Assembly: GCA_947384955.1 (NCBI GenBank)
Contig: CANDJC010000044.1
Location: forward strand, 1-36,290
Origin: an uncultured Eubacterium sp.
Lineage (GTDB): Bacteria; Bacillota; Clostridia; Lachnospirales; Lachnospiraceae
Direction: 5' to 3'
Length of the DNA: 36,290 nt
Below the pieces are notes generated by a model. That model was given only the letters and a program-made list of their open reading frames with translations, made no database searches and had not been told where the DNA came from. The translations under genes and the position numbers were made by a program. This document shows, piece after piece, positions 3,093 to 30,449 of this stretch (position 1 is its first letter; the number at the start of each line of letters is the position of its first letter).

Positions 3093-3102
3093 AATAAACC
3101 TC

Positions 3103-3294
3103 CTAAACTGCTGTGCCGGTTACCAGCATATAATCTTGCAGGTGCTCCAGAATAATTTTTGAAACACACTGCAGCGCAGCATCCGTATCATAAGAAAAAT
3201 TGCCTAATTCCAGTAATTCTTCTTCTAACAGCTGCTGTGCTATCTGCATTACAATTTCATTTCTTTTTCTGCCTGCTGTTCTGTCTGCATTCAT
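3103..3294 (-). CDS. Small conserved-looking protein between xis and int
   Basis: A 63-residue protein beginning MNADRTAGRKRNEIVMQ, with a predicted helical, acidic-leucine rich middle (QQLLEEELLELG). The frame stays open upstream to 3486, but the ATG at 3294 has AAGGGAG seven bases before it and is the better start. It lies 10 nt before int and is presumably cotranscribed. I do not recognise a family; a small regulator or recombination accessory factor is only a guess from position. Confidence 0.6.
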   Translation of the reverse strand: MNADRTAGRKRNEIVMQIAQQLLEEELLELGNFSYDTDAALQCVSKIILEHLQDYMLVTGTAV

Positions 3295-3445
3295 ACTTTT
3301 CTCCCTTGCATAATTATGATTTACAGCTTGATTTTTACTGCATGAAAACATCCGGCCTGAATACCATATGGGTGTTTCCATGTGTAACAGACATTCCGCT
3401 GCATTGTATAAAAACTGGGGAATGCCTGTTTTTGATACAGTTTCT

Positions 3446-3652
3446 TTAATGAGAATTCTCCGATATATAAAGTTTGATTTTTTCAACGTTGAATCTTCTC
3501 AGCTTCGTAAACGGCAGTTCCACACGGGCTTCTGCCCGTTCAGCAATCATTAAAGCCGTCTGTTTTCCCACTGACAGCATTCTGCACAGCCCCTCTGTAT
3601 CTGTAATCAGAATTTCATTTTTGTCAGATTCCCTGTATTTCCGCTGGTTCAT
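3446..3652 (-). CDS. xis: Putative excisionase / winged-helix DNA-binding protein
   Basis: A 68-residue basic protein with a MerR/Xis-like helix-turn-helix (GLCRMLSVGKQTALMIAERA, about residues 21-40) followed by a wing-like segment (VELPFTKLRRFNVEKIKLYI). Its size and topology resemble Tn916 Xis, which directs excision by bending arm DNA. The ATG overlaps the helicase stop as ATGA, indicating translational coupling. A plain HTH regulator is the alternative. Confidence 0.65.
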   Translation of the reverse strand: MNQRKYRESDKNEILITDTEGLCRMLSVGKQTALMIAERAEARVELPFTKLRRFNVEKIKLYISENSH

Positions 3653-5295
3653 GACTGTCCGTCCCCGCTTTCTGATATTTTCAGAATTTCATACCGCCTG
3701 TCACAGTTTTTAGATTTCGGATACATTTTAACTGCAAACGGCAACTGATTCTTTTCAAAAAAGCTGTTGATTTTCTGCCATTTGGCTAATTCTGTAGTTT
3801 TCGGAAATGTCACTCTGTCTGCTGCATGCAGAATCGGCATTAATTGTTTACGAAACTCGTTGAATTGTTCTACTTTCAAAGTAACACCCTCGTAGGTGGA
3901 CATAAATGCAGCAATATTATCAATGTATGTAGAAGGCACTGTGAAATACGCATGGTTTTCGGGCAGACCCAGCCAGTGACCCTGGTGGAGTATGTATGCG
4001 TCCGGCCCATTAGTATCAAATTCTTCTAAAATAGCTTCGTACTCAGCAGCCAGTTCTCCCATGCGCCGTAAGGAAAGCCAGTTACAAAAATAACGACTGT
4101 TAGCATATAAGTTACGCCATACACCAATGAATTTCCGCAATACAGCAGCCTTTTTCTCATCATAAAATTCTGTGGCAATGAAAATATCAGCATACGGCTG
4201 TGACATCTGGTACATTACATAATTCACATACCGAAGCTGAAATTTCAGCTGCGATAAGCGTCTGCTAAAAAAGAGCCTGTCACGTGCATGCAGATAAACA
4301 TTTGTGGTTTCACCCGCCTGAATACGTCTTCTGCCTAACATTTGAACCATCGATTCCATATTGTCCAGCAAAATGAAAATATGGTTTACATTACTGTCAA
4401 AAATGTTAACACCGGCATCGAGCTTCGCTGTTGCCAGAAGCACCCGGTGTGAAAATTTCTGCTCCGTCACAAGTTCTGTTTCCAATTCCTGTCCATGTTC
4501 TGAATCAGCGGATTCAGATGAATATAGGAAAACATCCCCTCCCGGCATTATTTTCTTTAATAAGGATTTGATTTCTTTTCCTTCTGCAATGCTTGAAACA
4601 AAAACGAGCACTTTTTCATCGCCGGGCAATTCCGAAATTATCTGAACCATTTCCTGATGATGGTAAAACCACAGAAAATTATATCCGCTATAGTCCGGTT
4701 CCACGCGCTTGTATATGTAGGGCTCATACATTCCCTCTTTTGCCAGAAAACTCTGTGCAGCAGTCTGATTCAGGTAAACCGCCAGAATCGGGTATAAATT
4801 CTGCATTGTTGCGCTCATGAAAATCAGCTGGCGGTTGCGGTAATTCTGCACCAGAAACTCGAACGAATGTACGGTATTTGGGTTGAAAAGTGAATCAGCC
4901 AAGAAATAGTGCGCTTCATCTGCAACAACAATATCAAAACTATTAAAATAGTTAATATCAGGCACATTATTCGTTACAAGCGCCATTTCAAGTGTTTGAT
5001 ATGTCGTTATAACAAAATTTCCCGGTTCCTTTTTTAGGTCATGCATCCAGAACGACTGTGTTTCGAGATGCTGTTCCCATTCAATTACACGTTTTTTTTG
5101 CCTTTCCAGCATCTGTTCCCGTAAAGTAATGCGGTTTACCAGATAGAGGATGCGCTTACCCTGTGAAAAGGCATATTTTCTGAAGGTCGTTTCACAAAAC
5201 ATTGTTTTTCCGCTTCCCGTGGGCACATCCAGAATAATAACTTGTCCTTTCTGCCATTCTTCATACCCGTCCCCAATGAAATCTGCAAAATACAT
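3649..5295 (-). CDS. DEAD/DEAH-box superfamily 2 helicase of the integrative element
   Basis: A 548-residue protein with a full set of SF2 motifs: Walker A VPTGSGKT (24-31), motif Ia YLVNRITLREQ, motif II DEAH (126-129), motif III SAT (161-163) and motif VI QMLGRRRI (318-325). Residues 350-548 are a C-terminal region that I cannot assign. AAGGAG lies eight bases before the ATG, and the stop overlaps the xis start. Being coupled to excisionase and integrase suggests a role in the element's replication or transfer rather than in chromosomal repair. A defence function is possible, because DEAH helicases are common there, but no nuclease domain is visible. Confidence 0.85.
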   Translation of the reverse strand: MYFADFIGDGYEEWQKGQVIILDVPTGSGKTMFCETTFRKYAFSQGKRILYLVNRITLREQMLERQKKRVIEWEQHLETQSFWMHDLKKEPGNFVITTYQTLEMALVTNNVPDINYFNSFDIVVADEAHYFLADSLFNPNTVHSFEFLVQNYRNRQLIFMSATMQNLYPILAVYLNQTAAQSFLAKEGMYEPYIYKRVEPDYSGYNFLWFYHHQEMVQIISELPGDEKVLVFVSSIAEGKEIKSLLKKIMPGGDVFLYSSESADSEHGQELETELVTEQKFSHRVLLATAKLDAGVNIFDSNVNHIFILLDNMESMVQMLGRRRIQAGETTNVYLHARDRLFFSRRLSQLKFQLRYVNYVMYQMSQPYADIFIATEFYDEKKAAVLRKFIGVWRNLYANSRYFCNWLSLRRMGELAAEYEAILEEFDTNGPDAYILHQGHWLGLPENHAYFTVPSTYIDNIAAFMSTYEGVTLKVEQFNEFRKQLMPILHAADRVTFPKTTELAKWQKINSFFEKNQLPFAVKMYPKSKNCDRRYEILKISESGDGQS

Positions 5296-5384
5296 CTTTT
5301 TCTCCTTTCCTAATCGGCTTCACTCCAGTAACAAATCAGAATTAAAATTATCCAGAAATTTTTCCTCCTTTTTTCACCCGTCAA

Positions 5385-5546
5385 CTATGTTATCCCGGAG
5401 CCTCCTTCCCTGTTTTTCTCAGGCTGTGATTTTATTTTAGCCCCGATACGATTTTTTTCATCTTCCATCTTTCGAAGCAATGCTCTAAAAAATTTCAGCT
5501 TCAAAACATGGAGAATGTCCGTAATTTCAACTTTTCTTTCTTCCAC
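5385..5546 (-). CDS. Possible small helical protein upstream of the helicase
   Basis: A GTG-initiated frame of 53 codons reading VEERKVEITDILHV, a basic-hydrophobic helix and then a charged tail (MEDEKNRIGAKIK). The composition looks coding and it would head the helicase operon. Against it, no clear ribosome site precedes the GTG and it nearly fills the divergent intergenic region in which the promoters should lie. A second frame at about 5316-5390 (TTG start, hydrophobic, roughly 24 aa) is even weaker. Confidence 0.25.
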   Translation of the reverse strand: MEERKVEITDILHVLKLKFFRALLRKMEDEKNRIGAKIKSQPEKNREGGSGIT

Positions 5547-5592
5547 TTTTTGCCGATATCTTTATAAAGGAGATTAATAAAATAATAAAAAT

Positions 5593-7005
5593 ATGGGAAA
5601 AATGAGAAAATCTGAGAAAATACAGTTTGAACAGTTATTTAAAATCAAAAATACAGCGGACAGCCATTTCAATCTGTACAGCGAATGGACAGACCATACT
5701 GCATCAGCATGCAAAAATATGCCTGTCAAAATACTGATTTCTACTGATATAACAGAACTGGCTTTTCCAGAATGCATCTTTCATTCTTATTTGAAATCGC
5801 TTATTTCTTACGATGCTTCTATGAAGCGGATGTATTCTAATGAAGGCTTGCGGGATATCTATTATGAATACATTGGAGCCCCTTCATTTTTTTCTAAGCA
5901 TGTCAAAGCCTTGAAAAACTCTTACAGAATTTACTGCCGCGGATTAAAACACGGATTCGGCCATCGCATAGCTTTTACAGGTTTCCAGAGAAGGTTTTAT
6001 GACTTCCTGCTGGAAAACGGTATTTTTAGTAACAGTGCGGAGCGGATACAGTATGCAGTGCCAGGACACCTTGTGCCTGTCATTATCAGCATCATTATGG
6101 CCTGGAATTATTCACCCGCTGCTTTTCCGGATGATACTGGAAATGAAAATGTATCATTTTCTAATTTCCAGAAAGAAGTATTCCGGAAATTAGAAAAATT
6201 CAAATTCCTTTCCAGTGAATACTGGCTGTTTACACTGTATTTTCTGCATTATTATTTTAATGACGAATGCTTTGCCTGTTTTCAGATACCTGTTTTCCAG
6301 AGAAATAAAAAGGTTATGCTGTTTTTAGAAAATGAATATAAAAACTATACAAATGCACTTTATGAAATAACATCTGCTGTACCATACCTGTTTTTAAAAA
6401 AAGCATCACTGGGTTTTGCATACAGTATTTTAGAAAACAATATAAGAGCAATACTGACACCAGAAACAGAATACAGGCCATGCCCGGAAACAGAATCTTT
6501 TTTAAAAGATTTTTATAAAGAATTAAAAAGCCTGACAAATGCGAATCTGACAGAATCAGCCGGTATTATGGATAAAAACCTCCTGAAATATCCATATACA
6601 TGTGACCAGTACATTATCCATATACAGCCGGAAAAACTGCAGCAGTACATAAAAATCCTGACTTCCCGTAACGATGCCTACGCTGCTGCCATGCACGGGC
6701 TGTGCAGACAGCTGGAAAGAGATATCGGAGCCTGTCAGAAAACTTTAGAATCCGGTACCTATAAAGCAGCCAATATGGTACGGATGCAAAAAACTTTAAA
6801 TGAATTTCTTTCAGAATCAAATACACTCTTAGCCGGTGCAGTCGAAAAACATAGCAAATTGCTAGAACAAGGCATAACAGCTGTAGAGAAATATAAGTCA
6901 GGCAGGTCTTATAAAATACCTGAACGCCTGTTTACTGCAAATCTGTTATATGAAGACTCCTTTCGGATAATTTTGGACAGCATTTCTAAAAGAAGAATGC
7001 TTTAA
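5593..7005 (+). CDS. Unrecognised 470-aa protein, divergent from the helicase
   Basis: I recognise no family. The protein is soluble-looking, rich in aromatic residues and lysine, with no signal peptide. A His/Arg/Gly-rich stretch lies around residues 120-132 (CRGLKHGFGHRIAF), and helical, coiled-coil-like segments at about 350-440 (QLERDIGACQKTLESG; KHSKLLEQGITAVEKYK). The first ATG is used; the only ribosome-site-like sequence (AAAGGAG) lies about 20 nt upstream, which is long, so the second methionine (residue 4) is also possible. The 91-aa gene follows after 4 nt and a strong terminator closes the pair. Its opposed arrangement with the helicase suggests one functional module of the element. 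Confidence 0.7.
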   Translation: MGKMRKSEKIQFEQLFKIKNTADSHFNLYSEWTDHTASACKNMPVKILISTDITELAFPECIFHSYLKSLISYDASMKRMYSNEGLRDIYYEYIGAPSFFSKHVKALKNSYRIYCRGLKHGFGHRIAFTGFQRRFYDFLLENGIFSNSAERIQYAVPGHLVPVIISIIMAWNYSPAAFPDDTGNENVSFSNFQKEVFRKLEKFKFLSSEYWLFTLYFLHYYFNDECFACFQIPVFQRNKKVMLFLENEYKNYTNALYEITSAVPYLFLKKASLGFAYSILENNIRAILTPETEYRPCPETESFLKDFYKELKSLTNANLTESAGIMDKNLLKYPYTCDQYIIHIQPEKLQQYIKILTSRNDAYAAAMHGLCRQLERDIGACQKTLESGTYKAANMVRMQKTLNEFLSESNTLLAGAVEKHSKLLEQGITAVEKYKSGRSYKIPERLFTANLLYEDSFRIILDSISKRRML

Positions 7006-7009
7006 AAAA

Positions 7010-7285
7010 ATGCCGCCCATAGAACTAAAAATATCCAAGAATACGGAAATCTGCTATGAAAGTTTTACAGCCGGATTATCTGATACCGTGGAATTTTACA
7101 GCAAATTATTTTTGTCGTACGAAAGCAGAATACAGACGAAGCTAAATTCTCCTGATTTGTTTTGCCATGCTTTTCAAGCCTGTATTAAAAAACATGGCAA
7201 CACTATTTTATCTTCACTTATACCAGTCAGAGAAATAGAAGAAATCATGAAACAGCATGCAGACATGAAAAAGTCGATTCCATAA
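7010..7285 (+). CDS. Unrecognised 91-aa protein, second gene of the pair
   Basis: A small, mostly helical protein (MPPIELKISKNTEICYESF ... REIEEIMKQHADMKKSIP) starting 4 nt after the 470-aa gene, with AGAAG as a weak ribosome site inside that gene's 3' end. The tight spacing suggests translational coupling and joint function. No motif is recognised. The last codons form the left arm of the terminator. Confidence 0.6.
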   Translation: MPPIELKISKNTEICYESFTAGLSDTVEFYSKLFLSYESRIQTKLNSPDLFCHAFQACIKKHGNTILSSLIPVREIEEIMKQHADMKKSIP

Positions 7286-7304
7286 TATAAGATTTCGACT
7301 TTTT
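7268..7304 (+). terminator. Terminator of the 470-aa/91-aa operon
   Basis: A 10-bp perfect dyad AAAAAGTCGA/TCGACTTTTT with a 17-nt loop. The left arm overlaps the 91-aa stop codon region, and the right arm ends in five T. Because the left arm starts with A5 it can also serve the convergent recombinase gene. Confidence 0.8.
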
Positions 7305-7319
7305 CAGCGCTGTTTTTCC

Positions 7320-7943
7320 TTAATCTGCCTTCACCAGCCTGTAAAATGTCCCTTTCTTAATCCCTGTCCGCTTCATTGCTTCTACAGCCGTAATCTTTCC
7401 TTCTCTCCATTTCCTGATTACCTCTTCCCAGTTATCCGGTTTTGGAATTCTCGGCCTCCCGTAATCGGCCCATTCACCGCGCCTCTTTTTCGCTTCGATT
7501 CCCTCCCTCTGCCTTTTCTCCTTTTTCCGGATTTCAGCTTCTGCCATGGCAGCGTACAGTTCAGTCAGCATGCTGTTGACTGTTTCCAGTATCATCCGCG
7601 CCATGCCGTTATCCAGCCTGCTCAAATCCTGTAACGTGGTCGGGATTTCCAGAATCATGACCCGTATTCCCTTATCCTGATAATAGCGCAGTTCGCCCAG
7701 CGTATCTTTCTTGCTCCGCCCCAGACGGTCTACTTCCGTGATAATCAGTGTGTCACCCTTGCGGAGTATATCGTCCCGTAACACTGTATACCTCGGACGG
7801 TTAAAATTCTTTCCCGTCTGCTGGTCTGTGTATATCCTTTCCAGTTCCAGCCCGTTATCCCGGCAGAACTTTTCAATCTCGCTGATTCCCCGGTCTAAAT
7901 GCTGCTCCCTTGTGCTTGTCCTGTGATAGCCGTAATATGCCAT
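7320..7943 (-). CDS. Small serine recombinase (resolvase/invertase type)
   Basis: A 207-residue serine recombinase. The N-terminal catalytic domain shows R8-x-S10 in GYHRTSTREQ (S10 the nucleophile) and the downstream EVDRLGRSKKD active-site arginine motif. A long helix E follows (MILETVNSMLTELYAAMAEA), then a C-terminal helix-turn-helix (ITAVEAMKRTGIKKGTFYRL). The size is typical of Tn3-like resolvases or invertases, not of large transposon recombinases. I chose the ATG at 7943, which has GGGAGG upstream; the longer open frame lacks one. A 120-bp nested palindrome starts 45 nt upstream of the start codon, the usual place for a res site. It probably resolves multimers or cointegrates of the excised element. 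Confidence 0.92.
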   Translation of the reverse strand: MAYYGYHRTSTREQHLDRGISEIEKFCRDNGLELERIYTDQQTGKNFNRPRYTVLRDDILRKGDTLIITEVDRLGRSKKDTLGELRYYQDKGIRVMILEIPTTLQDLSRLDNGMARMILETVNSMLTELYAAMAEAEIRKKEKRQREGIEAKKRRGEWADYGRPRIPKPDNWEEVIRKWREGKITAVEAMKRTGIKKGTFYRLVKAD

Positions 7944-7987
7944 AATATCTTTCCCTCCCAAAAAGCATACATTCTGAAACACGCAAA

Positions 7988-8107
7988 AAATATATCCGGA
8001 GCCGTCCAAAAATGCATGCATGCGGATTAACGGACGTTTCAATCCGCATGCGCACTTTTCTGAACGCTTCCGTCTGCATGCATTTTTATCCTTCCCCGGA
8101 TATATTT
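7988..8107. promoter_or_regulatory. Nested palindromic recombination site (putative res)
   Basis: Three perfect inverted repeats are nested on nearly one centre. The outer is 12 bp (7988-7999 with 8096-8107), the middle 13 bp (8008-8020 with 8075-8087) and the inner 11 bp, GCATGCGGATT N12 AATCCGCATGC (8018-8028 with 8041-8051). No coding frame explains them. The position directly upstream of the serine recombinase gene fits a resolvase accessory/crossover site. An origin of transfer or replication is the alternative. Confidence 0.6.
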
Positions 8108-8134
8108 CTGCTTTCCATCAGACAGCAGCATTCT

Positions 8135-9019
8135 TTATGCTGCTATGGTAAAGCTGTGTTCCTTCCTATTATAAAAGTAGACACTGTCCGACAGAATATC
8201 ACATTCCGGCAGTTCCGTGCCGTTCACGGATGTGACAATCATTTTTAATTCCTGTGCTGTTTCCGGCCTGCATTTATCAGCCGGTACTATAATGACCTCA
8301 TGGACGGAGCTTGGAAGCACATAGAACCCGAAACCGATTCTTTCCGCCACCTGTTCCAGCATCCCCTTATACAGGATGCATGCGGCTCCGTACAGTTTCA
8401 TGGGATTTGTCAGCACATAAAAAGAGATTCCTCTTTCAGGGGATGCAGCGCCGTCCAGAATGTCATCCATTCCGGCCAGCTTCCCCGGCAGTCTTTCCGC
8501 CGTATTCCTCTCTGCATTCAGCAGAATTTCATCCATTCCGGCTTTCCACGCTTCCATCAGCATGACCGTTACCGGAACTGTCCGGCATCCGTCCCCGTCT
8601 GTTTCAAACAGAAGGTAAAACACCTGTGACAAATCACAGAAATCAATATGCGGCATGTCCTGCAGCAGCTCCCTGTTTGCTTCTGTGCTGACAAGACGGA
8701 ACATCAGCCTTTTTCTTGCCAGATTCCAGTCAAGCAGTTCATCTTCCCGAACAGCCTGCTTTTCTTTCCCTGCTTTCCAGTATGTCATCAGCATGTCTGA
8801 CATAATCATGTCCATGTCTTCCTTATTCATATACAGTCTGTAGTAGAATTCCAGAGGTATGCATTCAGACAGATTCTCTCCCTCTGATGATATGACAAGG
8901 TAATCAGACTTAATGCCGTTAACCCGCGACAGCTTCTCTGCATGCAGACGGAAACCGCTTCCCAGTAACTGCTGCATCCTGTTCCTGACTTCATTCACAA
9001 AACTGCTGTATTCCTTCAT
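8135..9019 (-). CDS. DUF5688 family protein
   Basis: A 294-residue soluble protein of the DUF5688 type, which I associate with mobile elements of Lachnospiraceae. The opening (EVRNRMQQLLGSGFRLHAEK, residues 10-29), the early IPLEFYYRLYMNKEDMD segment and the closing VNGTELPECDILSDSVYFYN fit that family. No catalytic motif is evident and the function is unknown. The ATG overlaps the stop of the upstream 60-aa frame as ATGA, and GGGAGGG lies upstream. It is the third gene of an operon led by two tiny proteins, and its stop codon lies in an 8-bp hairpin (8124-8144). Confidence 0.75.
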   Translation of the reverse strand: MKEYSSFVNEVRNRMQQLLGSGFRLHAEKLSRVNGIKSDYLVISSEGENLSECIPLEFYYRLYMNKEDMDMIMSDMLMTYWKAGKEKQAVREDELLDWNLARKRLMFRLVSTEANRELLQDMPHIDFCDLSQVFYLLFETDGDGCRTVPVTVMLMEAWKAGMDEILLNAERNTAERLPGKLAGMDDILDGAASPERGISFYVLTNPMKLYGAACILYKGMLEQVAERIGFGFYVLPSSVHEVIIVPADKCRPETAQELKMIVTSVNGTELPECDILSDSVYFYNRKEHSFTIAA

Positions 9020-19886: not shown

Positions 19887-20957
19887 TCATTCTATCAAAA
19901 TATCTCCCGACTCACATGTAATTTCTATCTGCTTCTGATTCTCTTCATCCAGGGAAGCATAAGACCGGCCCATATCCCTGCCGCCTATTTTCACGGTACC
20001 ATACTCGGTTATCAGCCTGTATGCATAATCTGTTACCGGCTGTTTCAGTGCAAGATGAACACTGCCGTATTCCGCATTAATTTTACAGCCGTCTGTCTGT
20101 ACCTGCTGCAGCTTGCATTCACCGTTTTCCAAAGACATCTGTACATTTCCCGCCTCCGACTCCTGGATATCCAGGTTCCCGTAAGCGCTTGTTACACTCA
20201 GGGTGCCAAAGGATGTATCGGAACATCTGATATCTCCGCTGTCCATTGCAATATTCATCCCGCCTGTAAAAGCAGCATGATAAAACGCCGCATCTCCGTA
20301 CTCAGACTGCACCGTGCACTGGCCGGCCTGTACGTTTTCCATCTTTAAATCCCCGCTGTCCAGCTTTATTTCCATAGTTTCTGAGCTGACGTTTAAAAAA
20401 TCCGCCCTTCCATAATCTGCTTCTATTTTTATCGTATCTGCCTGTATATTTTCACAGGCGGCGTCTCCGCTGTCTGTTTTGATTTCTGCAGATTTCAGCT
20501 TCGCCTCCTTCGGTACGCGTACGGTCACATATTCCTCTGCTCTGTCCGCACGGCTGTTTCCCACAGAAAACCATGTAAAATTTTTAATCCCCAGAACCTT
20601 ATTATTTTCATGTCTTAATATCAGTCTGCCGTCTTTGATTTCCCTGCTAAGCGGATTGTCTTTATTAAGACAGTAAGACAGCGAATATTCATCGGAACCG
20701 GATGCTTCTATGCGCACATTTTCGTATTCTCCGTCAATCATAACAGCATCAAACGCTTCTAATTTTTCCTCTTCCTGCTTACAGACAGTTTCTTCCTTCT
20801 TATTTTTATCTAAAAGCGGTGCCTGAACCTGAATGCCGTCTCCGCTGATAGAAAGCCCGTATACCGTTCCTCCGGCAAGAATCCCTACGGTAACAAGAAT
20901 CAGTCCGGCCCCGGTCAGAAGCAGACATGTTTTTATAAATTTTATATGTTTACCCAT
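19887..20957 (-). CDS. DUF4097 family beta-helix protein, membrane anchored
   Basis: A 356-residue protein with a basic N-terminus and one transmembrane segment (about residues 9-33). A linker and a DUF4097/putative-adhesin repeat region follow (about 65-356), in which short strands recur around DSGDAACENI, DSGDLKMENV and DSGDIRCSDT, predicting a right-handed beta helix outside the membrane. AAAAGGAG stands eight bases before the ATG, within the end of the preceding gene, and the two genes overlap by 8 bp. In PadR-DUF1700-DUF4097 operons this protein is thought to sense or respond to envelope stress; the ligand is unknown. Confidence 0.88.
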   Translation of the reverse strand: MGKHIKFIKTCLLLTGAGLILVTVGILAGGTVYGLSISGDGIQVQAPLLDKNKKEETVCKQEEEKLEAFDAVMIDGEYENVRIEASGSDEYSLSYCLNKDNPLSREIKDGRLILRHENNKVLGIKNFTWFSVGNSRADRAEEYVTVRVPKEAKLKSAEIKTDSGDAACENIQADTIKIEADYGRADFLNVSSETMEIKLDSGDLKMENVQAGQCTVQSEYGDAAFYHAAFTGGMNIAMDSGDIRCSDTSFGTLSVTSAYGNLDIQESEAGNVQMSLENGECKLQQVQTDGCKINAEYGSVHLALKQPVTDYAYRLITEYGTVKIGGRDMGRSYASLDEENQKQIEITCESGDILIE

Positions 20958-21540
20958 TCTTTTTATCTCCTTTTCGAATCAGTCCAGCCAGGGAACACAG
21001 CATCCATTTCAAAAAAGCCTTGGACAAAAGATAAATGCCGTAAGTAAGTGCCGCTCCGATTCCGGCTGACAAAAGTCCCATTCCCATACATGTTAAAAAT
21101 ACCGGAATACTTTTTGTCAGTACACTAAATCCGCAGATAATCGTAAGCGGCCCCGCAATCACGCCGCATACACCGGTTAACAGCAGCGCAAGCAGCAGCG
21201 CCCATACAACAATTCCCGCAGCAATGATAAGTACGGCTCCTGTCAATAGAAGCGGAAGCGCTACCGGAGCCGCACACAGTGCAAGCAGCGCTACCCAGAC
21301 AGCATTCATGCCGCTTTTGACATCTTTAACCGGCTCTTTCGAATAATCAAGCGCCATATCATGGATAATCTGCTCCGCCGCTTCCTGGGGACTGCCAAGG
21401 TCTTCAATTGCTTTTGCCTCGTTTTCTTCCCCCGCTTCCTGAAAATATTCCTCATAATACTCCACTGCACGTTCAAAATCTTCTCTGGGAAGGCGTTTTA
21501 GTTTTTCTTTCAGCTGTCTTAAATATTCTTCTTTATTCAT
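20950..21540 (-). CDS. DUF1700 (HAAS-signalling type) membrane protein
   Basis: A 196-residue protein. Residues 1-75 form the helical DUF1700 signalling head (MNKEEYLRQLKEKLKRLPRE, then YYEEYFQEAGEENEAKAIEDLGSP), followed by about three to four transmembrane helices (90-180) and a basic end. The ATG overlaps the PadR stop as ATGA, and it overlaps the DUF4097 gene by 8 bp, giving a translationally coupled three-gene operon. Such proteins are regarded as partners of PadR-like regulators and DUF4097 proteins in envelope responses. Confidence 0.88.
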   Translation of the reverse strand: MNKEEYLRQLKEKLKRLPREDFERAVEYYEEYFQEAGEENEAKAIEDLGSPQEAAEQIIHDMALDYSKEPVKDVKSGMNAVWVALLALCAAPVALPLLLTGAVLIIAAGIVVWALLLALLLTGVCGVIAGPLTIICGFSVLTKSIPVFLTCMGMGLLSAGIGAALTYGIYLLSKAFLKWMLCSLAGLIRKGDKKNG

Positions 21541-21878
21541 ACTTTTACGTCTGCCTCCTCTTTGTCCTGACTGCCTGGTTCTAAAATTTCGCTGACTGCC
21601 TGGATATACGCGTTCCATTCCTGTTCTAAAAATTCTTTCTGCTGTTTTCCGGTTTCTGTAATCCGATAGTATTTCCGGTTCCGGCCCTGGAACTGCTCGT
21701 CATAAATATCGACATAGTGACTGTCTGCAAGCCTTCGCAGTACCGGATACAGCGTGGAATCTTTCAGGTTTGAAACATGCTTTATCCGCTGGCTGATCTG
21801 ATATCCGTAACTGTCCTTCTGACAGATAAGCGCCAGAACAAGCAGCTCCATCAGGACAGGATTTAATGGGAATGTCAT
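21537..21878 (-). CDS. PadR-family transcriptional regulator
   Basis: A 113-residue winged-helix repressor, usual for the short PadR subfamily. The core runs LLVLALICQKDSYGYQISQR, then LKDSTLYPVLRRLADSHYVD (recognition helix and wing) and the YYRITETGKQQ wing, with a C-terminal dimerising helix. AAAGGAG stands seven bases before the ATG. It heads the DUF1700-DUF4097 operon and very likely represses its own promoter, which carries an AT-rich dyad between -35 and -10. Confidence 0.93.
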   Translation of the reverse strand: MTFPLNPVLMELLVLALICQKDSYGYQISQRIKHVSNLKDSTLYPVLRRLADSHYVDIYDEQFQGRNRKYYRITETGKQQKEFLEQEWNAYIQAVSEILEPGSQDKEEADVKV

Positions 21879-21957: not shown

Positions 21958-21994
21958 GATATATATATTTTTTATTCTTATTCGGAATGAAATA

Positions 21995-22033
21995 AAAAAG
22001 AAGCGCATGCTTTTTTGCAGTACGCTTCTTTTT
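21995..22033. terminator. Terminator of the FRG cassette
   Basis: An 11-bp perfect dyad AAAAAGAAGCG/CGCTTCTTTTT with T runs on both strands, 23 nt after the stop of the last cassette gene. Confidence 0.85.
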
Positions 22034-22055
22034 CATATATCTTATTTTTATAGTC

Positions 22056-22223
22056 TTAAGGATGTTTTTCTATAATAACAATCCTGCCTTTTTCATTTTC
22101 TCTGTAATCAAATACTTCAATATTAGACCCTTGTACACGTCCCCAAAAAGTATTTCTTGTATCTCCACAGGTATTTCTCTTATAAAATGCGTTTCGTATA
22201 ACACCTTTTGGTCCGATTGGCAA
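22056..22223 (-). CDS. Small protein 2 of the FRG cassette (paralog of small protein 1)
   Basis: A 55-residue protein starting at TTG, with AGAGGGG eight bases upstream. It reads MPIGPKGVIRNAFYKRNTCG, then DTRNTFWGRVQGSNIEVFDY and a tail RENEKGRIVIIEKHP. About 70 percent of positions match the 54-aa protein at 26243-26407, including GV(I/V)RNAFYKRNT, NTFWGR and VFDYRENE. It follows the large FRG gene by 56 nt and precedes the terminator. I recognise no family. The basic, aromatic-rich middle could bind nucleic acid or the large protein; that is speculation. The duplication on both sides of one gene argues for a functional link. Confidence 0.7.
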   Translation of the reverse strand: MPIGPKGVIRNAFYKRNTCGDTRNTFWGRVQGSNIEVFDYRENEKGRIVIIEKHP

Positions 22224-22279
22224 TGTTATCACCCCTCTTTCATGTTTATCTTATCATATTAGGAATCTGTTTTCAAGGG

Positions 22280-25200
22280 TTATCTAACCCTCTGTCCAAT
22301 ATTTACAAGTTCTGGATATATTCTCTCCTTTGAAATCCCCATCCGGTACAGACATTCCGCAATCTCCTCTGCAGCACCTTTTTCGATTACAATTTTATAT
22401 AAAAACTGTTCTTTCCTGCTTTTTCTGCCGCAAACATTAAAATAATAGTCCTGTACACTTTGAAGGTCCATATAAGCATATGCATCATTGTCATTTTGGG
22501 AAGGTTCTGCATATAAGTTATATGCCAAAAAAATACCGCTTTGAGACCTGATTCTTGGATTGAGTCTGGATGTATATACAGCAAGCGGTAAATATGCTAT
22601 TTCTTCCTTTCCTATTAAGGACATTTCCCGGGTATATCCATAAGGATTTTCAGATTCATAATCTATATTTCCCATTAAAAACATATTATAAACATTCTCA
22701 TTATAACTGGCTGCAATATTTGGTATCAGCCCGTCACTTCGGTCTGCTGTCTTCTTCGATGCCAGAAACGCCAGCTCTGTACAGGCAGTAGCTTTAGCAG
22801 CTTCATTAATCATATAAGTTCTTGCCTCATTATACAGGTGCGGACTGAATACAAATATTGCAGCGTCTTTTTTTGCTGTCCGCTCTTCATGTGTAATCAG
22901 TTTTTCAAGCGCAAAGTACAGACTTGTAAAAGCATCCTCAGACCAGTCCATCAGATTTGTATTAACCCCATAGTGCTGCATCAGTGCCAGATAATCAGAT
23001 ATTCCGTAAAACGACTTATCCATAACCTCCGGTGCACCATCTGCCCTGAATTTAAACTCACCAAACAGGTTTCTCTGATACTGCGATAAATAATGAAAAT
23101 CCTTCCTGTTACTGATACACATACTCCTCATAATTCCTGGCAAAAGGCCATAGCTGCTGTCCGACTGGCCGCGATACCATAAAGGCCATGTTTTCACTCC
23201 AAAAACATGACGCATGCTTTCCTCCAGCATTTTGGTCACAGAATTCATTTCTCCAAGAAAGCTTTCCAGCCCGTATACAGTCGGCACCTCATTGATTTTT
23301 CTGCCGGAATCATATGTTCGCGATACTTTTTCGACTCCTTCAAATTCCATAGTAAATACAGGCTGACGATATGGCTCGCTGCTGTCAGCTTTTGCCTGAT
23401 TACGCTGTTTATTAATCTTATGAATATCTGTGAGCTTTTCCTGCTTTTGAAAATAATGAATCAGTTTAATATTTTCAGCAAAGGTCTCTTCATGCAGCTT
23501 AATAGAAGCTTCCTGGCAGAGCTTAACAGCCTGCTCTTCTTCTGCATGCTGACACAGCTGTTCTATTTTCTTAATATTTTCAGCATATTTACCGTAAGCT
23601 TTTCTGTATTTATAAAAGTAAAAATTGCATTTTTCTTCTATATTATACCCATTCAGACGCTGTCTGACACCAGACATTTCTGCCAGAATCCGACAGTGCT
23701 TTCTATACAGCCCAAATTCACTCTTATACTCTTCTCTGCATTTTAAAAAATATCCAAACCATTCTTCTGCCTGTCTTTTACGATTATTTATCTTGTCAGA
23801 TACAGCTGCCATTCCATATCCTGAATAATTGAAATATTTAGCCGCATATCTGTAAATAAATATATCCCTTACTGCTTCCAGGCTGCATCCGTGATACTCA
23901 TAAATATCCAGAATAACACCGACTCTGACCAGTTCTTTTAAGTCATCCATAAAACTGATGACATCCGGACTTCTAAGTTCATGCTTGAGTGACTGAGAAT
24001 ATAAAAGCATATACTCTTCTAACGGCATTTGAGCAAGTTCAATCATTGGAACATCAGCAGCCGCTTCTTCCAGACCGTCTGCTATCTTATCGATTACGTA
24101 TGTATATTCCTCTTTTCCAGATATAAAGCTCTTCACGCCGCCTGCTGTTTCCAGACATTCTTTCAGTTTTTCTGTAAATGGATGCTCAGCACCACCCCGT
24201 GCAAGACATACCTGCAGCTTCTCATAACATAATCCCTTAAAATCTCCATTACACAATTCTGCGTGCAGTTCATGAATCCAGTCTTCTATGCAGGTACTTC
24301 TGCCGCCAAGACAACTGATCAGTTCATTGATATACACCCGTTTTATCAGAACAACTGTATCCGTATCACTTTTTTTCCTGCATTCATGAAATCCTGTAAT
24401 CTCAGAATGCATCTTAGAATAATTACGAATCACAATATCATATATAAGGGGCTGAACATAATTGACAGCCTTTCTGGCCATTTCTTTGTGACTGCCTGCT
24501 AATTCTGAAAAAGCAGATAATAAGACACTCTGCATGTAAACAGCTGAGAGCATGATTCCCATAACATAATCGCGCTCTTCCCTGTCATAAGGTACTATAT
24601 AATGGTATATCTCATGATAAAGATACTGTATGTATACCGGAATATCATAAAACGTGACATGAGGCAGATTCAGTGATACAATTTTAAAATCCTGATCAGT
24701 CTCTTTCTTGCTGACAAACAGAGATTTATCAAAATAAAGCTCACTCTCAATGATTGGAACGATATCTACTGTAACTATGGGAATAATTTCAGTCTGTTTA
24801 TTGCAGTGTTTAAGCTGATAAGCAGTCTTTAATATTTCCTTGATGATTCCCATGTATGCAAATAGAATGCAGTCCTCCCGGCCTGTATACCTTAAATGGC
24901 ATTTTGGCAATTCAAAATTAAGGCTGTTTGCCTCTGAAATATGGAAAACCTGCTGTTTGAGGTTATTTAATATCAAACGCAGAACAGGCATAAATTCTAT
25001 ATCTGCATTTTCCATGCTGATAATCTCCTGAATACATTCCATATTTTTAAGAAAAATATAAGAAAAATCGTCTGCCCAGCTTTGGTTTACAGCTGAAGCA
25101 ACATTATACCGGTAATCACAATGCAGTGAATCCAGTGTATCTATAATTCCAGCTGTTTTATCAATTTTTCTGTCAATTAATAACCGGAGATTTTCATATA

Positions 25201-26218
25201 CCTTTTTTACATCCTTCAAATCATTCGGAAGATTTTCATCGTACAGTTTTCTTTTCTTATCTGCACTGCTGCTTTCATCTATCCTGTCTGAAACAAATAA
25301 CGGGGACTGACAATGAATATCCTCTGCCAGAGTTACCCGGGTCTGCAGTATCTGACGCTGATAGGTATCTTTATCGTGGTTAAAAATATTCCATTTTTCA
25401 AAATCAAGAAATGCCGCGCGGGATTCCATTTCCATTGCTATGTCATACTCCCCGGACGTATGCCGGATATTCTTAACCTTTTCCTGATTAAAAAAATCAA
25501 GACTCTGGTTTATGTATTTTTTCAAAGTAACTTGAACATATGCCCTGCCCTTTATTTCCTTTACAAGCTCATTTTCATCATTTGCCTGATCATATGCCGG
25601 ATTTCTTGAAAACATCGTATGAGCAGAAAAATACACCCTTTCCCCGTCATAGATACTGTCACGTTTGATGCTGTTCACTATCCTCAGAATATCGGTATAC
25701 TGATTGCAAAGCCAGAGAATCGATAATCCAAATATCCCAAATGTTCCAAGTACCATATACTGGCAGTCTCCCGTATTTCGCACTGATTCCTTTTGAATCA
25801 TTTCTTCTAATTCTGCCTTTGCATGCTGCAGGAATTCTCCATAATCTTTCATTTTTTCCCGCAGTATATTTTGAAACGGAAGCTCTGTTAATGCCCAGAA
25901 CAAATGTTTATCATACTGGCCTGATCTGCTCTCTTTAAATCCCCATTCATCCTTATCTTCGGAATATAAAAAGCGAGGAGTATTATCCAAATCATATAAC
26001 AGTATTGACTGGCGGTTTCCTACCCAGTCCTTCGCCAGAGCAGACAAGTCCCGAAACCTGTCAATCTTAGATATATTGTTAACTTTCAGCCTGTCATATT
26101 CACCAAATGTTAATATACTTTTTCTGGCTTCATCATATGCAAGACATGAACGAATATCTTCCATAGATTCCCTGGGATACTGCACATATTTATAGTATTC
26201 AAAAATATATCCTCCCAC
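22280..26218 (-). CDS. 1312-aa protein with HExxH motif and C-terminal FRG domain
   Basis: A very large soluble protein. Residues 1-400 show no family I know. At 531-545 QYLYHEIYHYIVPYD has HEIYH (535-539), an HExxH zinc-peptidase motif in a helical context; no third ligand is certain. Residues 860-940 are charged and helical. An FRG domain occupies about 980-1290: WYRGQSDSSYGLLPGIMRS (1014-1032) and LMQHYGVNTNLMDWSEDAF (1079-1097). The start is GTG with AGAGGAG eight bases upstream; no better ATG exists nearby. It is the middle gene of a three-gene operon whose outer members are paralogous ~55-aa proteins. FRG-domain proteins are poorly characterised and often sit in mobile or defence contexts, so a defence or toxin role is possible but unproven. 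Confidence 0.8.
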   Translation of the reverse strand: MGGYIFEYYKYVQYPRESMEDIRSCLAYDEARKSILTFGEYDRLKVNNISKIDRFRDLSALAKDWVGNRQSILLYDLDNTPRFLYSEDKDEWGFKESRSGQYDKHLFWALTELPFQNILREKMKDYGEFLQHAKAELEEMIQKESVRNTGDCQYMVLGTFGIFGLSILWLCNQYTDILRIVNSIKRDSIYDGERVYFSAHTMFSRNPAYDQANDENELVKEIKGRAYVQVTLKKYINQSLDFFNQEKVKNIRHTSGEYDIAMEMESRAAFLDFEKWNIFNHDKDTYQRQILQTRVTLAEDIHCQSPLFVSDRIDESSSADKKRKLYDENLPNDLKDVKKVYENLRLLIDRKIDKTAGIIDTLDSLHCDYRYNVASAVNQSWADDFSYIFLKNMECIQEIISMENADIEFMPVLRLILNNLKQQVFHISEANSLNFELPKCHLRYTGREDCILFAYMGIIKEILKTAYQLKHCNKQTEIIPIVTVDIVPIIESELYFDKSLFVSKKETDQDFKIVSLNLPHVTFYDIPVYIQYLYHEIYHYIVPYDREERDYVMGIMLSAVYMQSVLLSAFSELAGSHKEMARKAVNYVQPLIYDIVIRNYSKMHSEITGFHECRKKSDTDTVVLIKRVYINELISCLGGRSTCIEDWIHELHAELCNGDFKGLCYEKLQVCLARGGAEHPFTEKLKECLETAGGVKSFISGKEEYTYVIDKIADGLEEAAADVPMIELAQMPLEEYMLLYSQSLKHELRSPDVISFMDDLKELVRVGVILDIYEYHGCSLEAVRDIFIYRYAAKYFNYSGYGMAAVSDKINNRKRQAEEWFGYFLKCREEYKSEFGLYRKHCRILAEMSGVRQRLNGYNIEEKCNFYFYKYRKAYGKYAENIKKIEQLCQHAEEEQAVKLCQEASIKLHEETFAENIKLIHYFQKQEKLTDIHKINKQRNQAKADSSEPYRQPVFTMEFEGVEKVSRTYDSGRKINEVPTVYGLESFLGEMNSVTKMLEESMRHVFGVKTWPLWYRGQSDSSYGLLPGIMRSMCISNRKDFHYLSQYQRNLFGEFKFRADGAPEVMDKSFYGISDYLALMQHYGVNTNLMDWSEDAFTSLYFALEKLITHEERTAKKDAAIFVFSPHLYNEARTYMINEAAKATACTELAFLASKKTADRSDGLIPNIAASYNENVYNMFLMGNIDYESENPYGYTREMSLIGKEEIAYLPLAVYTSRLNPRIRSQSGIFLAYNLYAEPSQNDNDAYAYMDLQSVQDYYFNVCGRKSRKEQFLYKIVIEKGAAEEIAECLYRMGISKERIYPELVNIGQRVR

Positions 26219-26242
26219 TTCAGCCTCTCCTCTTTCGTCTAA

Positions 26243-26407
26243 TTATCTCTTTTCGGATATCACAATTTTCCCTTCTTCATTTTCTCTGTAATCAAATACC
26301 TTCATATTGGCTCCCTGTGTACGTCCCCAAAACGTATTTTTTGTATTTCCCCGGGTATTTCTCTTATAAAACGCATTACGTACAACGCCCTTTGTTTCAT
26401 ATTCCAT
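26243..26407 (-). CDS. Small protein 1 of the FRG cassette
   Basis: A 54-residue protein reading MEYETKGVVRNAFYKRNTRG, then NTKNTFWGRTQGANMKVFDY and RENEEGKIVISEKR. AAAAGGAG stands eight bases before the ATG. Its stop lies 24 nt before the GTG of the 1312-aa gene, so it is the first gene of the operon. It is a paralog of the protein at 22056-22223, with the same length, same order of conserved blocks and similar bases. Likely a partner, antitoxin or adaptor of the large protein; the evidence is only positional. Confidence 0.72.
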   Translation of the reverse strand: MEYETKGVVRNAFYKRNTRGNTKNTFWGRTQGANMKVFDYRENEEGKIVISEKR

Positions 26408-26494
26408 GCTTCTTTCTCCTTTTCTTCATGTATTTTTCTTTTCTGCATCTTATAACAATGATACTATTAACAGAGTACCATAAATCATCCGCTT

Positions 26495-26523
26495 TGTATA
26501 GTTGAATTTAATATTTAATTCAA
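26495..26523 (-). promoter_or_regulatory. Promoter and dyad of the FRG cassette
   Basis: On the minus strand TTGAAT, 17 nt, TATACA. TTGAATT (26502-26508) and AATTCAA (26517-26523) form an inverted repeat that fills the -35 and spacer, so repression by a DNA-binding protein is likely. An ~87-nt leader separates it from the first gene. Confidence 0.55.
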
Positions 26524-26536
26524 TAAAATTGTATTC

Positions 26537-26561
26537 CGGACAGCAGCCCCGCCGCTGTCCG
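26537..26561 (-). terminator. Hairpin after the LysM-GH18 gene
   Basis: CGGACAGC and GCTGTCCG pair perfectly over a 9-nt G+C-rich loop, 37 nt after the stop. The T run on the minus strand is weak and distal. Confidence 0.5.
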
Positions 26562-26597
26562 AACATGATGCAAAATGTTATACATACCCAGACATTT

Positions 26598-27740
26598 TTA
26601 CTGCACATGCCGTATCCAGAACTGGTCAGCAAGCAGCAGCCAGTTCGCACGAAACAGGCGCATTATCTGCCAGTACCCCATACCGCGCAAATCATATTCC
26701 TTCACAAGGTCAAATTTTGCCTGCATGCTGCGCACATCCTCAAACCAGACTTCATGCTCCCTGCCATCTTTAAAATAATGAAAATACGGCGACTGCGCTC
26801 TTTCGTCATACTGAATCACCGCATCATTTTCAATCGCAGTCCGTACAGCCTGCAGATTGCTTACCGTTCTGGCGCGGGATACACCCTGTTCAAAAGGAAG
26901 CGTCCAGTCATATCCGTAATTAGGTATTCCAAGATTAATCTTTTCCCTCGGAATACGCGTAACCGCATAGTCAACCACCTGGCGGACATTCGGAATCGGC
27001 GCTACTGCCATTGGCGGGCCGTACGTATAACCCCACTCATAAGTCATCAAAAGCACGTTATCCGCAGCTTCTCCAAGCAGACGGTAATCTTTGCCTTCAT
27101 ACAGTGTCCCTTTCTGGTTATCCGATGTCTTCGGCGCAAGCGCTACCGATACCGGATATCCAAGCGCATTGACAGCTGTGCGGACATTGCTTACAAACTG
27201 CGCAAACGGTTCTCTGTCACTTGCAAGAATATATTCAAAATCAATGTCCACACCCTGAAATCCCTTTTGCAGAACCGTATCCGTCAGCTGTTCAATCAGA
27301 TGACTTTGTACTTCCATATCATTTACAACCGCGCTAATCAGATAATTATTAAACCTTCCATCCGGCCCGAACGGCGTCAGAGTCAAAACCGGCGCTGTAT
27401 TATTTGCAATCGCCATCTCTATCATAAACGTATCATCGGTATTCGGAGGTATTAAATCCCCCTGCGTCGTAAATCCATAAGAAAATACAAACAGCTTGCT
27501 TAAGTACGGCAGCGTCTGGGCCAATGTATCGGCTGAAATATAAGGATAAGCATATCCTCCGGTTTCCACAGCCTTTCTTACCTGGGGACTTGCTCCCTTT
27601 GAAAGCAGCAGCGCCTGGCCGATTGCAAGCGGATATGGGTATTCCAGCTGATTGTTGTAAATAATCGTATCTACTGGCACGCCTTGTTTTATGGCGATTG
27701 AATCTACGGAATCGCCGGGTTTTACAACATAGATTTCCAT
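26598..27740 (-). CDS. LysM-GH18 spore-cortex type glycosidase (SleL/YaaH-like)
   Basis: A 380-residue protein. An N-terminal LysM repeat (about 1-47; MEIYVVKPGDSVDSIAIKQG, then IGQALLL) would bind peptidoglycan. A GH18 barrel (about 60-380) contains the catalytic DxDxE as GVDIDFEYI, LLMTYEWGYTYGPP and the C-terminal GMGYWQIMR. This is the layout of SleL/YaaH enzymes, which cut cortex fragments during spore germination, so it suggests a spore former. There is no signal peptide, as expected for proteins made in the mother cell or forespore. I chose the ATG because the family begins M-x-I-Y-x-V-K-P-G-D. The ribosome site is poor, and a GTG lies four codons upstream. Confidence 0.88.
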   Translation of the reverse strand: MEIYVVKPGDSVDSIAIKQGVPVDTIIYNNQLEYPYPLAIGQALLLSKGASPQVRKAVETGGYAYPYISADTLAQTLPYLSKLFVFSYGFTTQGDLIPPNTDDTFMIEMAIANNTAPVLTLTPFGPDGRFNNYLISAVVNDMEVQSHLIEQLTDTVLQKGFQGVDIDFEYILASDREPFAQFVSNVRTAVNALGYPVSVALAPKTSDNQKGTLYEGKDYRLLGEAADNVLLMTYEWGYTYGPPMAVAPIPNVRQVVDYAVTRIPREKINLGIPNYGYDWTLPFEQGVSRARTVSNLQAVRTAIENDAVIQYDERAQSPYFHYFKDGREHEVWFEDVRSMQAKFDLVKEYDLRGMGYWQIMRLFRANWLLLADQFWIRHVQ

Positions 27741-28607: not shown

Positions 28608-30449
28608 TCAGACTTCACTTAACAGCCAGCACACCCCGTACGGCGGCAGTTCCATCTGCTGCCCCTGTGTTTTATTTCCCGATATCAGCTCCGTATAACT
28701 CCTGCCGTCCTCATCCAGCCATACCCGCTTATCAAACTCACTAAAATTAAACAGCGCCGTCAGTTTTTCCTTTCCGTATCTGCGTACAATTCCAAGCACA
28801 GCATTATCTCCCGCATCAAACGTCCATACATCCGCCTGCGTATCAAATACCGCATGTCCCTTTCGGATATTTTCAAGCCTTTGAATACCCGTAAACAGTT
28901 TTTCCTGAACAGTGCCTTTTTCAGAACGCTTTTCTTCCAAATCCCAGCGGAATTTCCCACGGTGCAGATATCTGGAATCTTCCAGGCGGTCCGGGTCTTC
29001 GTGGTAAGAATAATCGTTTTCCTGTCCGATTTCATCTCCGCTGTAAATAACCGGGATTCCGGACTGTGTGAGCATATAGGCATGCAGCATCAGGTCTAAC
29101 TGTATCGCACGCGCAAGCGCGTCTTCGTTTCTTTCATAAGCGGCCTTTTCTATCCCGCACAAAGATGCCGTTGTACCGCACAGCCTCGCATCGCCGGATG
29201 ACGGGTCTGAATTATAAAGCTCGCCTCTGCCAAAGGAACCCGGATATTCGCCTGTCAGAAAATCATTCAGATATTTTTTGTGGCTGACTTCGCCGATTCC
29301 AAACTGCATCAGCCAGGTATAATCCAGCCCCCATCCAATATCGTCATGGCATCTTAAATAATTCAAAAATACATATTCTTTCGGAAGCCTGCTGACAATA
29401 TCCATCTGCAGCTTTAACAGACGCGCATCCCTTGAAGCAACTGTATGCCAGGTAGTTGCCATTGTCGTTACATTGTACAGCATGTGGCATTCCGGCTTTT
29501 CTACACTGCCAAAATACGGCACAACCTTCTCCGGCTCCATAACGACTTCACCGAGAAGCAAAACACCCGGGCACACAATCTCACAAATCATGCGCATCAT
29601 GCGCACAATTGTATGCACCTGTTTTAAGTTCCGGCATTTCGTGCCAAGCTCCTTCCATATGTACGGCACTGCGTCAATCCGCATAACATCAATGCCTTTA
29701 TTAGCCAGATATAAAAAGTTATAGACCATTTCATTAAATACCCTTGGATTTTTATAATTCAAATCCCACTGGTACGGATAAAAGGTCGTCATAACAAAAT
29801 GCCCTGCATCCTCAAGCCATGTGAAATTCCCTGGCGCCGTAGCTGGAAATACCTGCGGCACCGTCTTTTCATATTCTGACGGTATGGAATAATTATCATA
29901 GAAAAAATACCGGCTCATATATTCGCCTTCGCCCCGGCGCGCTCTTACGGCCCATTCATGGTCTTCCGATGTATGATTCATTACAAAATCCATGCACACA
30001 TTCATGCCCTTTTTATGACATGCATCCGTCAGACTCTCTAAATCTTCCATTGTGCCAAGCTGCGGCTGAACCCTGCGGAAATCAGCGACCGCATAGCCGC
30101 CGTCTGAACGTCCTTTCGGCGTATCTAAAAACGGCATCAGGTGAATATAATTGACCTGGCACTCTTTCAGATAATCCAGCTTTTCTTCCACGCCCTTTAA
30201 ATTGCCGGCAAAATTATCGATATACATCATCATGCCCAGAATGTCGTTTTTCTTATACCAGTCCGGCTCCTTTTCCCGCTGGGCATCCATCTTTTTCAAA
30301 GATTTATTACGCTGCGTAAAATACTCATACAGCTGGGAGCTTAATTCTGCAAACATATCGTCGTTTTCATAAAGCTCCATATACAGCCATCTTAACTCGT
30401 CGTGATGTCTTTCCAGTCTTTTTTGAAATACACTGTCTGCTTTCGCCAT
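28608..30449 (-). CDS. GH13 amylosucrase-type enzyme
   Basis: A 613-residue GH13 enzyme of the amylosucrase (GH13_4) type, which splits sucrose, releases fructose and builds alpha-1,4-glucan. A helical N-terminal region (1-65) precedes the barrel: LGMMMYIDNFAGNLKGVEEK, YIHLMPF, DGGYAVADFRRVQPQLGTME and DFVMNHTSEDH. The nucleophile is D259 (DVMRIDAVP), the acid/base E301 (LLLGEVVMEP), and the stabilising D369 or D370 lies in LRCHDDIGW, which resembles amylosucrase. No signal peptide is seen. GAAAGGA stands before the ATG. It follows fructokinase by 19 nt, consistent with joint sucrose use. Sucrose hydrolase or another GH13 glucosidase remains possible. Confidence 0.85.
   Translation of the reverse strand: MAKADSVFQKRLERHHDELRWLYMELYENDDMFAELSSQLYEYFTQRNKSLKKMDAQREKEPDWYKKNDILGMMMYIDNFAGNLKGVEEKLDYLKECQVNYIHLMPFLDTPKGRSDGGYAVADFRRVQPQLGTMEDLESLTDACHKKGMNVCMDFVMNHTSEDHEWAVRARRGEGEYMSRYFFYDNYSIPSEYEKTVPQVFPATAPGNFTWLEDAGHFVMTTFYPYQWDLNYKNPRVFNEMVYNFLYLANKGIDVMRIDAVPYIWKELGTKCRNLKQVHTIVRMMRMICEIVCPGVLLLGEVVMEPEKVVPYFGSVEKPECHMLYNVTTMATTWHTVASRDARLLKLQMDIVSRLPKEYVFLNYLRCHDDIGWGLDYTWLMQFGIGEVSHKKYLNDFLTGEYPGSFGRGELYNSDPSSGDARLCGTTASLCGIEKAAYERNEDALARAIQLDLMLHAYMLTQSGIPVIYSGDEIGQENDYSYHEDPDRLEDSRYLHRGKFRWDLEEKRSEKGTVQEKLFTGIQRLENIRKGHAVFDTQADVWTFDAGDNAVLGIVRRYGKEKLTALFNFSEFDKRVWLDEDGRSYTELISGNKTQGQQMELPPYGVCWLLSEV

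Follow-up and report, generated by a model that had tools for sequence, protein, structure and literature searches.

A rare Lachnospiraceae cassette pairing a large HExxH and FRG protein with a small partner, possibly for phage defence

The 36,290-nucleotide window analysed here (contig CANDJC010000044.1 of an uncultured Eubacterium sp.) harbours on its minus strand a cassette built around a large protein with an HExxH motif and a C-terminal FRG domain. In the order of transcription, an AT-rich dyad is followed by a small gene, the large gene, a second small gene and a terminator-like hairpin (Table 1). The cassette is real and rare, occurring in Lachnospiraceae and one unplaced bacterium. A new observation is that the protease-like part recurs in two other genomes of the class as an FRG-less protein of ~700 residues, which in both lies beside an RdrB-like gene and behind a short open reading frame (ORF). 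The giant protein and its small partner have the look of a conflict or phage-defence cassette that is complete in itself. The reading tentatively preferred here is a two-component system, most likely anti-phage and acting by abortive infection, in which a regulated effector is paired with a small inhibitory protein.

Domains of the large protein

The large protein consists, in order, of an N-terminal part, an HExxH metallopeptidase-like part, a helical linker and the C-terminal FRG. A first-pass annotation, made from the DNA letters alone, had proposed the 1312-residue ORF, the HEIYH motif at residues 535–539 and the FRG domain, and all three hold. Pfam places FRG at residues 1013–1107 with E 1.2e-17 (65 bits against a gathering cut-off of 25), and the homolog in locus L035 matches with 69.9 bits. 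R1016 and G1017, the RG of the F/Y-RG motif, are invariant in 23 of 23 aligned rows, as are R1031, H1082, D1091, F1102, A1103, R1222 and Q1226; the RG is preceded by Y or F. PADLOC matches this end to the candidate family PDC-S15, and PHROGs to one uncharacterised family over residues 1009–1310. A structural model of the region (predicted template modelling score, pTM, 0.72) had no Foldseek match in the PDB at E ≤ 0.001, and an FRG profile run against PDB sequences returned five matches, the best at E 0.31. In the passage of PMC9503650 that concerns it, FRG is presented as a member of the ART superfamily and a potential antiviral effector. The domain is probably a toxin that attacks nicotinamide adenine dinucleotide (NAD).

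The C-terminal 300 residues thus resemble FRG (PF08867; PDC-S15) in matching it significantly and keeping its family-invariant residues. Whereas FRG here is the tail of a 1312-residue protein that also contains an HExxH part and is encoded next to a small partner, the other FRG matches read in the same bacterial family are short ORFs of 241–434 residues from stop to stop (20 loci examined, one cut by the contig start). A small gene beside a putatively NAD-using, ART-type effector also recalls RES-Xre and other NADase modules of the superfamily; a passage of the same source describes RES as degrading NAD+ and as coupled to a helix-turn-helix antitoxin (PMC9503650). In contrast to RES-Xre, the small partner here matches nothing in Pfam significantly, and the effector shares its chain with a probable peptidase.

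The first-pass annotation regarded the remainder of the large protein as unrecognised. NCBIfam gave no match to the protein. The description needs amending, however, for a second motif, ExxxD at residues 718–722, and for a relationship to proteases whose genes lie next to RdrB-like ones. The H, E and H of HExxH are invariant in 8 of 8 aligned relatives, and the E and D of ExxxD are aligned in all six sequences (of eight rows) that cover the region. On this conservation, a candidate zinc site is supported, and the HExxH part is probably a zinc protease. HExxH with ExxxD is the combination of gluzincins, and E718 could supply the third zinc ligand. As in gluzincins, both motifs are present and conserved; in contrast to them, the sequence matches neither a peptidase family nor a solved structure, and 178 residues separate the two motifs.

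The alternative that the HExxH motif is structural, and that the large protein is an FRG effector carrying a large sensing region and no peptidase, is improbable, although several results favour it at the expense of the preferred reading. Pfam and NCBIfam contain no peptidase family matching the large protein, the distance from HEIYH to E718 is long, and a model of residues 1–973 from a three-row alignment reached a mean predicted local distance difference test (pLDDT) score of 38.7, too low for a fold search. A protease profile run against PDB sequences also gave no match. Against this alternative, HE..HY and E...D are kept at 13–27% identity, including in relatives that lack FRG.

Towards the N-terminus, the secondary-structure order of the low-confidence model weakly suggests two beta-alpha-beta-beta-alpha-beta units in residues of about 107–299. 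The N-terminal profile had two PDB sequence matches, the better being 1zd0_A (E 0.0065 over 154–257).

Table 1. Features of the cassette, its flanks and the RdrB-like loci with relatives of its protease-like part (window positions unless a locus is named)
Feature	Position	Strand	Remarks
AT-rich 22-bp dyad, possible operator	26502..26523		5' of the unit; repeat search, arms 91% complementary
Small protein, upstream copy, 54 aa	26243..26407	-	ATG start; carries NAFYKRN; position kept among relatives
Large protein, 1312 aa	22280..26218	-	GTG start; begins 24 bases past the upstream small ORF
N-terminal alpha/beta region, residues about 107-299, possible sensor	25322..25900	-	Low-confidence model, weak
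HEIYH, residues 535-539	24602..24616	-	Opens the signature HExxHY[IV]x[PA]xxRxxR[ND]
E718-A-A-A-D722, candidate third zinc ligand	24053..24067	-	ExxxD; alignment
FRG region, residues 1013-1312	22283..23182	-	Pfam, 23-sequence alignment, model pTM 0.72
Small protein, downstream copy, 55 aa from TTG	22056..22223	-	TTG behind a ribosome-binding site; alternative of 58 aa from GTG at 22232
Terminator-like hairpin, unit end	about 21992..22036	-	-22.9 kcal/mol, z -5.96
PadR operon	19887-21878		Window flank
Amylase gene	28608-30449		Window flank; near PadR in G1330 and G1334
RADAR-like locus of G941	L041:327-8649		RdrA-like, RdrB-like, small membrane protein, 103-aa ORF, 694-aa HExxH protein
Locus of G1061	L040:5411-10665		92-aa ORF ahead of the 706-aa HExxH protein

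Distribution of the cassette

Among 397 genomes of the same family, 22 match the large protein at E ≤ 1e-5, 19 of them around the FRG part only; apart from these there is the genome that contains the window, together with G225 (56% along the entire length) and G349 (27%). At order level, a profile built on residues 1–973 matched 2 of 392 genomes, namely G657 and the window's own. A first scan of genome contigs for relatives of the large protein found none. A second retained 4 of 495 pattern stretches, two of them on contigs known as G225 and G349, and genome contigs added a Roseburia metagenome-assembled genome (L033) and 'Bacterium 1xD42-87' (L035). A related large gene is hence present in six loci (window, G225, G349, G657, L033 and L035). 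FRG is seen in four of them, by Pfam in the window and L035 and by alignment in G225 and G349; L033 ends in a stretch of N and G657 at a contig end, so that the FRG end is out of range.

A short ORF precedes the large gene in 6 of 6 loci, within about 160 bases or overlapping it, as in L033 (ATGA). The bracketing by two small proteins emphasised in the first-pass annotation is seen only in the window and is not a defining feature, as G225 and G349 each have one match genome-wide, located upstream; the comparison rests on these two genomes, the 3' flanks of L033, L035 and G657 being unreadable or too short. The first-pass annotation also asked whether the small protein always neighbours FRG/HExxH proteins, and nothing found speaks against this. 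In the 397 genomes its homologs occur in two genomes and three copies, each beside the large gene, and none was found away from it in these genomes, phages, plasmids or viral contigs. For the second kind of small protein described below, 53 genomes were searched.

Four phage records match the large protein, at the FRG end only. A viral origin was considered and rejected, since viral contigs held no relative when searched with the large-protein profiles, the RADAR-side proteases, RdrB and the small-protein alignment; a DNA pattern for HExxHY[FLIMV]xPxxRxxR[ND] likewise found no relative in them.

Small partner proteins and their selection

The upstream small ORF has the ribosome-binding site AAAAGGAG ahead of its ATG. 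The two window copies are indeed paralogs, as first proposed, aligning at 70% identity (pN 0.18), although the length of 55 residues then given to both applies to the downstream copy only, and there only from the TTG. The ratio of nonsynonymous to synonymous differences (pN/pS) is 0.34 between the copies (95% bootstrap 0.19–0.58), 0.32 and 0.34 against the G225 homolog, and 0.56 and 0.62 against Roseburia L033; the large proteins give 0.35 and 0.21. Judged by these ratios, both small copies are real genes under purifying selection. The upstream copy is 57% identical to the G225 protein, from which the two copies differ with pN 0.27 and 0.29. As the window copies are closer to each other than to G225, the duplication probably postdates that split, yet it appears old (synonymous divergence, dS, 0.94).

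Small partners are of two kinds, one in the window, G225 and L033 (35–70% identity to those of the window) and one in L028, L035 and L031, where pN/pS between L028 and L035 is 0.10. L028 and L031 share NSFYDVF (0/1000 shuffles for widths 5–10, 2/1000 for width 4). The motif N[AS]F[YS] was rejected as proof that all small partners share descent, because its 0/1000 in a five-lineage set was driven by the homologous pair L028/L031. With the window, L028 and the RdrB-like loci L040 and L041 alone, 21/1000 shuffles reached it at width 4 and 67/1000 at width 5; with the window, L040 and L041 alone, 136/1000 did at width 4. As a candidate docking or cleavage site, the motif is recorded as a lead only.

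FRG-less relatives beside RdrB-like genes

A profile of residues 1–590 from the six loci matched 3 of 391 class-level genomes, namely the own genome, G1061 (E 1.3e-4) and G941 (E 1.5e-4). The relatives in the latter two are proteins of 706 and 694 residues without an FRG match, carrying HExxHY[IV]x[PA]xxRxxR[ND] and, at the aligned place, ExxxD. They scored 18.2 and 17.3 bits, against 9.6 for the best of 4000 local shuffles. The full-length profile A4 was much weaker (best stretches 7.1 and 12.4, best shuffle 7.2), and hhalign joined the two alignments with probability 88.5 and E 2.7e-6 over 431–558 only. On these scores and this span, homology to the large protein is well supported around HExxH and only plausible outside it.

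In G941, the protease follows genes for an RdrA-like protein (E 6.7e-15), an RdrB-like protein (E 2.3e-33) and a membrane protein, the last judged SLATT-like by sequence and lacking a PADLOC match. A 103-residue ORF lies between the RdrB-like gene and the protease, and the two may be accessory genes of RADAR. The RdrB-like gene of G1061 matches at E 4.6e-39 and runs convergent to the protease gene. The 103-residue ORF and its 92-residue counterpart in G1061 could be chance ORFs. The cassette thus resembles two RdrB-like loci of its class in its short ORF and HExxH protein, but none of the 10 window ORFs scanned matches RdrA or RdrB and the window is not classed as RADAR.

These loci raise the possibility of a portable immune control module in which a short partner, a sensor and an HExxH...ExxxD metallopeptidase would act on FRG in cis here and on the RADAR deaminase complex in trans elsewhere. 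If so, proteolysis would be a shared switch ahead of unrelated antiviral effectors and a new regulatory layer in bacterial immunity. The proposal is doubtful. Within 12 kb of RdrB, the protease signature is absent from all seven plasmid loci examined, which weighs against a general link to RADAR. With this result, and with an Aureibacter protein falling outside the family, RADAR was rejected as a general partner of the protease part. RdrB was found in one of 60 class genomes, G1061, on which that search was centred. As for relatives of the RADAR-side proteases, the 28 genomes searched from G941's order gave two (G941 itself and G814, a weak C-terminal match at E 3.2e-4 over profile positions 605–670), and the 16 from the family of G1061 gave G1061 itself. 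Across the phylum, the protease profile found 1 of 239 genomes, the own genome. The Aureibacter protein (L078:15427-17856) has 810 residues and an HELGHF motif, lies beside RdrB-like and SLATT genes, and is not among the profile matches.

Proposed mechanism and alternatives

In the preferred reading, the N-terminal part of the large protein would act as a sensor, followed by a zinc metallopeptidase whose family is absent from the libraries searched and by the FRG domain, which would attack NAD+ or ADP-ribosylate a target. The small protein, made just ahead of the large one, would bind it and hold it inactive. Infection would disturb this complex, upon which the peptidase may cut the small protein or the linker before FRG; the released FRG would then halt the cell. 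What is observed underneath comprises the genes and their linkage, the match to FRG, the motif conservation, the selection, the location at an accessory site and, for two relatives of the protease part, RdrB-like genes nearby. An obligate partnership is suggested by the small gene coming first, by its tight coupling to the large one and by selection acting on the two. Since a protease-like part shares one chain with the effector, cleavage of the partner or linker may be the switch.

Inhibition is favoured over a role of the small protein as activator, adaptor or bait, whereby a phage factor would change it, or it would dock substrates, and so switch the large protein on. Such a role is unlikely, if less so than the absence of a peptidase. 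It accords with a small ORF in 6 of 6 loci, and the small protein is unrecognisable across clades where the large protein retains ~25% identity, which fits a fast-evolving bait and weakens the case for an inhibitor. However, the antitoxin-like placement (small gene first, a 24-base gap, the ATGA overlap in L033) fits an inhibitor at least as well.

The defence or conflict role given in the first-pass annotation has partial support, from what a passage on FRG reports (PMC9503650), from PDC-S15, from the scattered occurrence of the cassette at a site that varies, and from the RdrB-like genes next to two relatives of the protease part. Neither a protease–FRG protein nor a protease with RADAR was found described in the open-licence PubMed Central literature, and no account of how FRG is held in check was found in the literature searched. 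In this cassette FRG is accompanied by a probable protease and a small partner of its own, so that a pair of genes and a pair of point mutants would suffice to study its activation.

Genomic site and neighbouring genes

In G1330 and G1334, of the same genus, at most about 400 bases separate the amylase gene from the PadR operon after it, and both the GH18 hydrolase and the cassette are missing from this gap; a hydrolase match at E ≤ 1e-30 is absent from both. This adjacency indicates that the interval holding the hydrolase and the cassette is variable. It was seen in 2 of the 11 PadR-side loci of relatives compared, each with about 1.5 kb of flank and some ending at a contig end; the other nine show no visible adjacency. 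Of 13 genomes of the genus, the own one included, 10 have the GH18 hydrolase and all have the DUF1700-type gene, and the nine relatives with both carry them on different contigs.

A variable site would also suit an independent toxin-antitoxin or addiction module whose role is to stabilise the accessory region and not to counter phages, as would a small-first operon with a dyad and a terminator-like hairpin; the likeness to type II modules was drawn by gene order only. Nevertheless, this explanation is as improbable as a purely structural HExxH. A multidomain toxin of 1312 residues is unusual for such modules, and relatives of the protease part neighbour RdrB-like genes. Further, plasmid records all fall short of 80% coverage of the large protein, the best 20 of 64 matching records do so at the FRG end only, and the N-terminal and RADAR-side protease queries had no plasmid match.

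Elsewhere, window positions 1908-9019 carry Tn916-type integrase, helicase, resolvase and DUF5688 genes and seem to belong to an integrative element distinct from the cassette. A 470-residue ORF within them (5593-7005, plus strand) has no Pfam or PADLOC match at E ≤ 0.001.

Transcription signals

The dyad announced in the first-pass annotation is present, with 10 of 11 pairs; when the flank was resampled 2000 times with a Markov model, 5 sequences reached this number. The strong terminator also proposed has its counterpart in the hairpin, whose stability was equalled in 0 of 200 shuffles, but the hairpin is not among the four terminator-like sites of a consensus scan. The promoter claimed for the unit was not borne out, as the consensus scan gave no sigma-70-like match on the minus strand from 26407 to 27000, and so none beside the dyad. 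In total, 24 promoter matches were found against 19.5 expected, which is not clearly above chance. One promoter-like match with an extended -10 (22248-22276, minus strand) lies directly 5' of the downstream small gene, so that this copy might have its own expression. Just past the cassette hairpin and 5' of PadR, a perfect sigma-70 consensus, TTGACA-17-TATAAT, is found at 21957-21929 (12/12, spacer 17).
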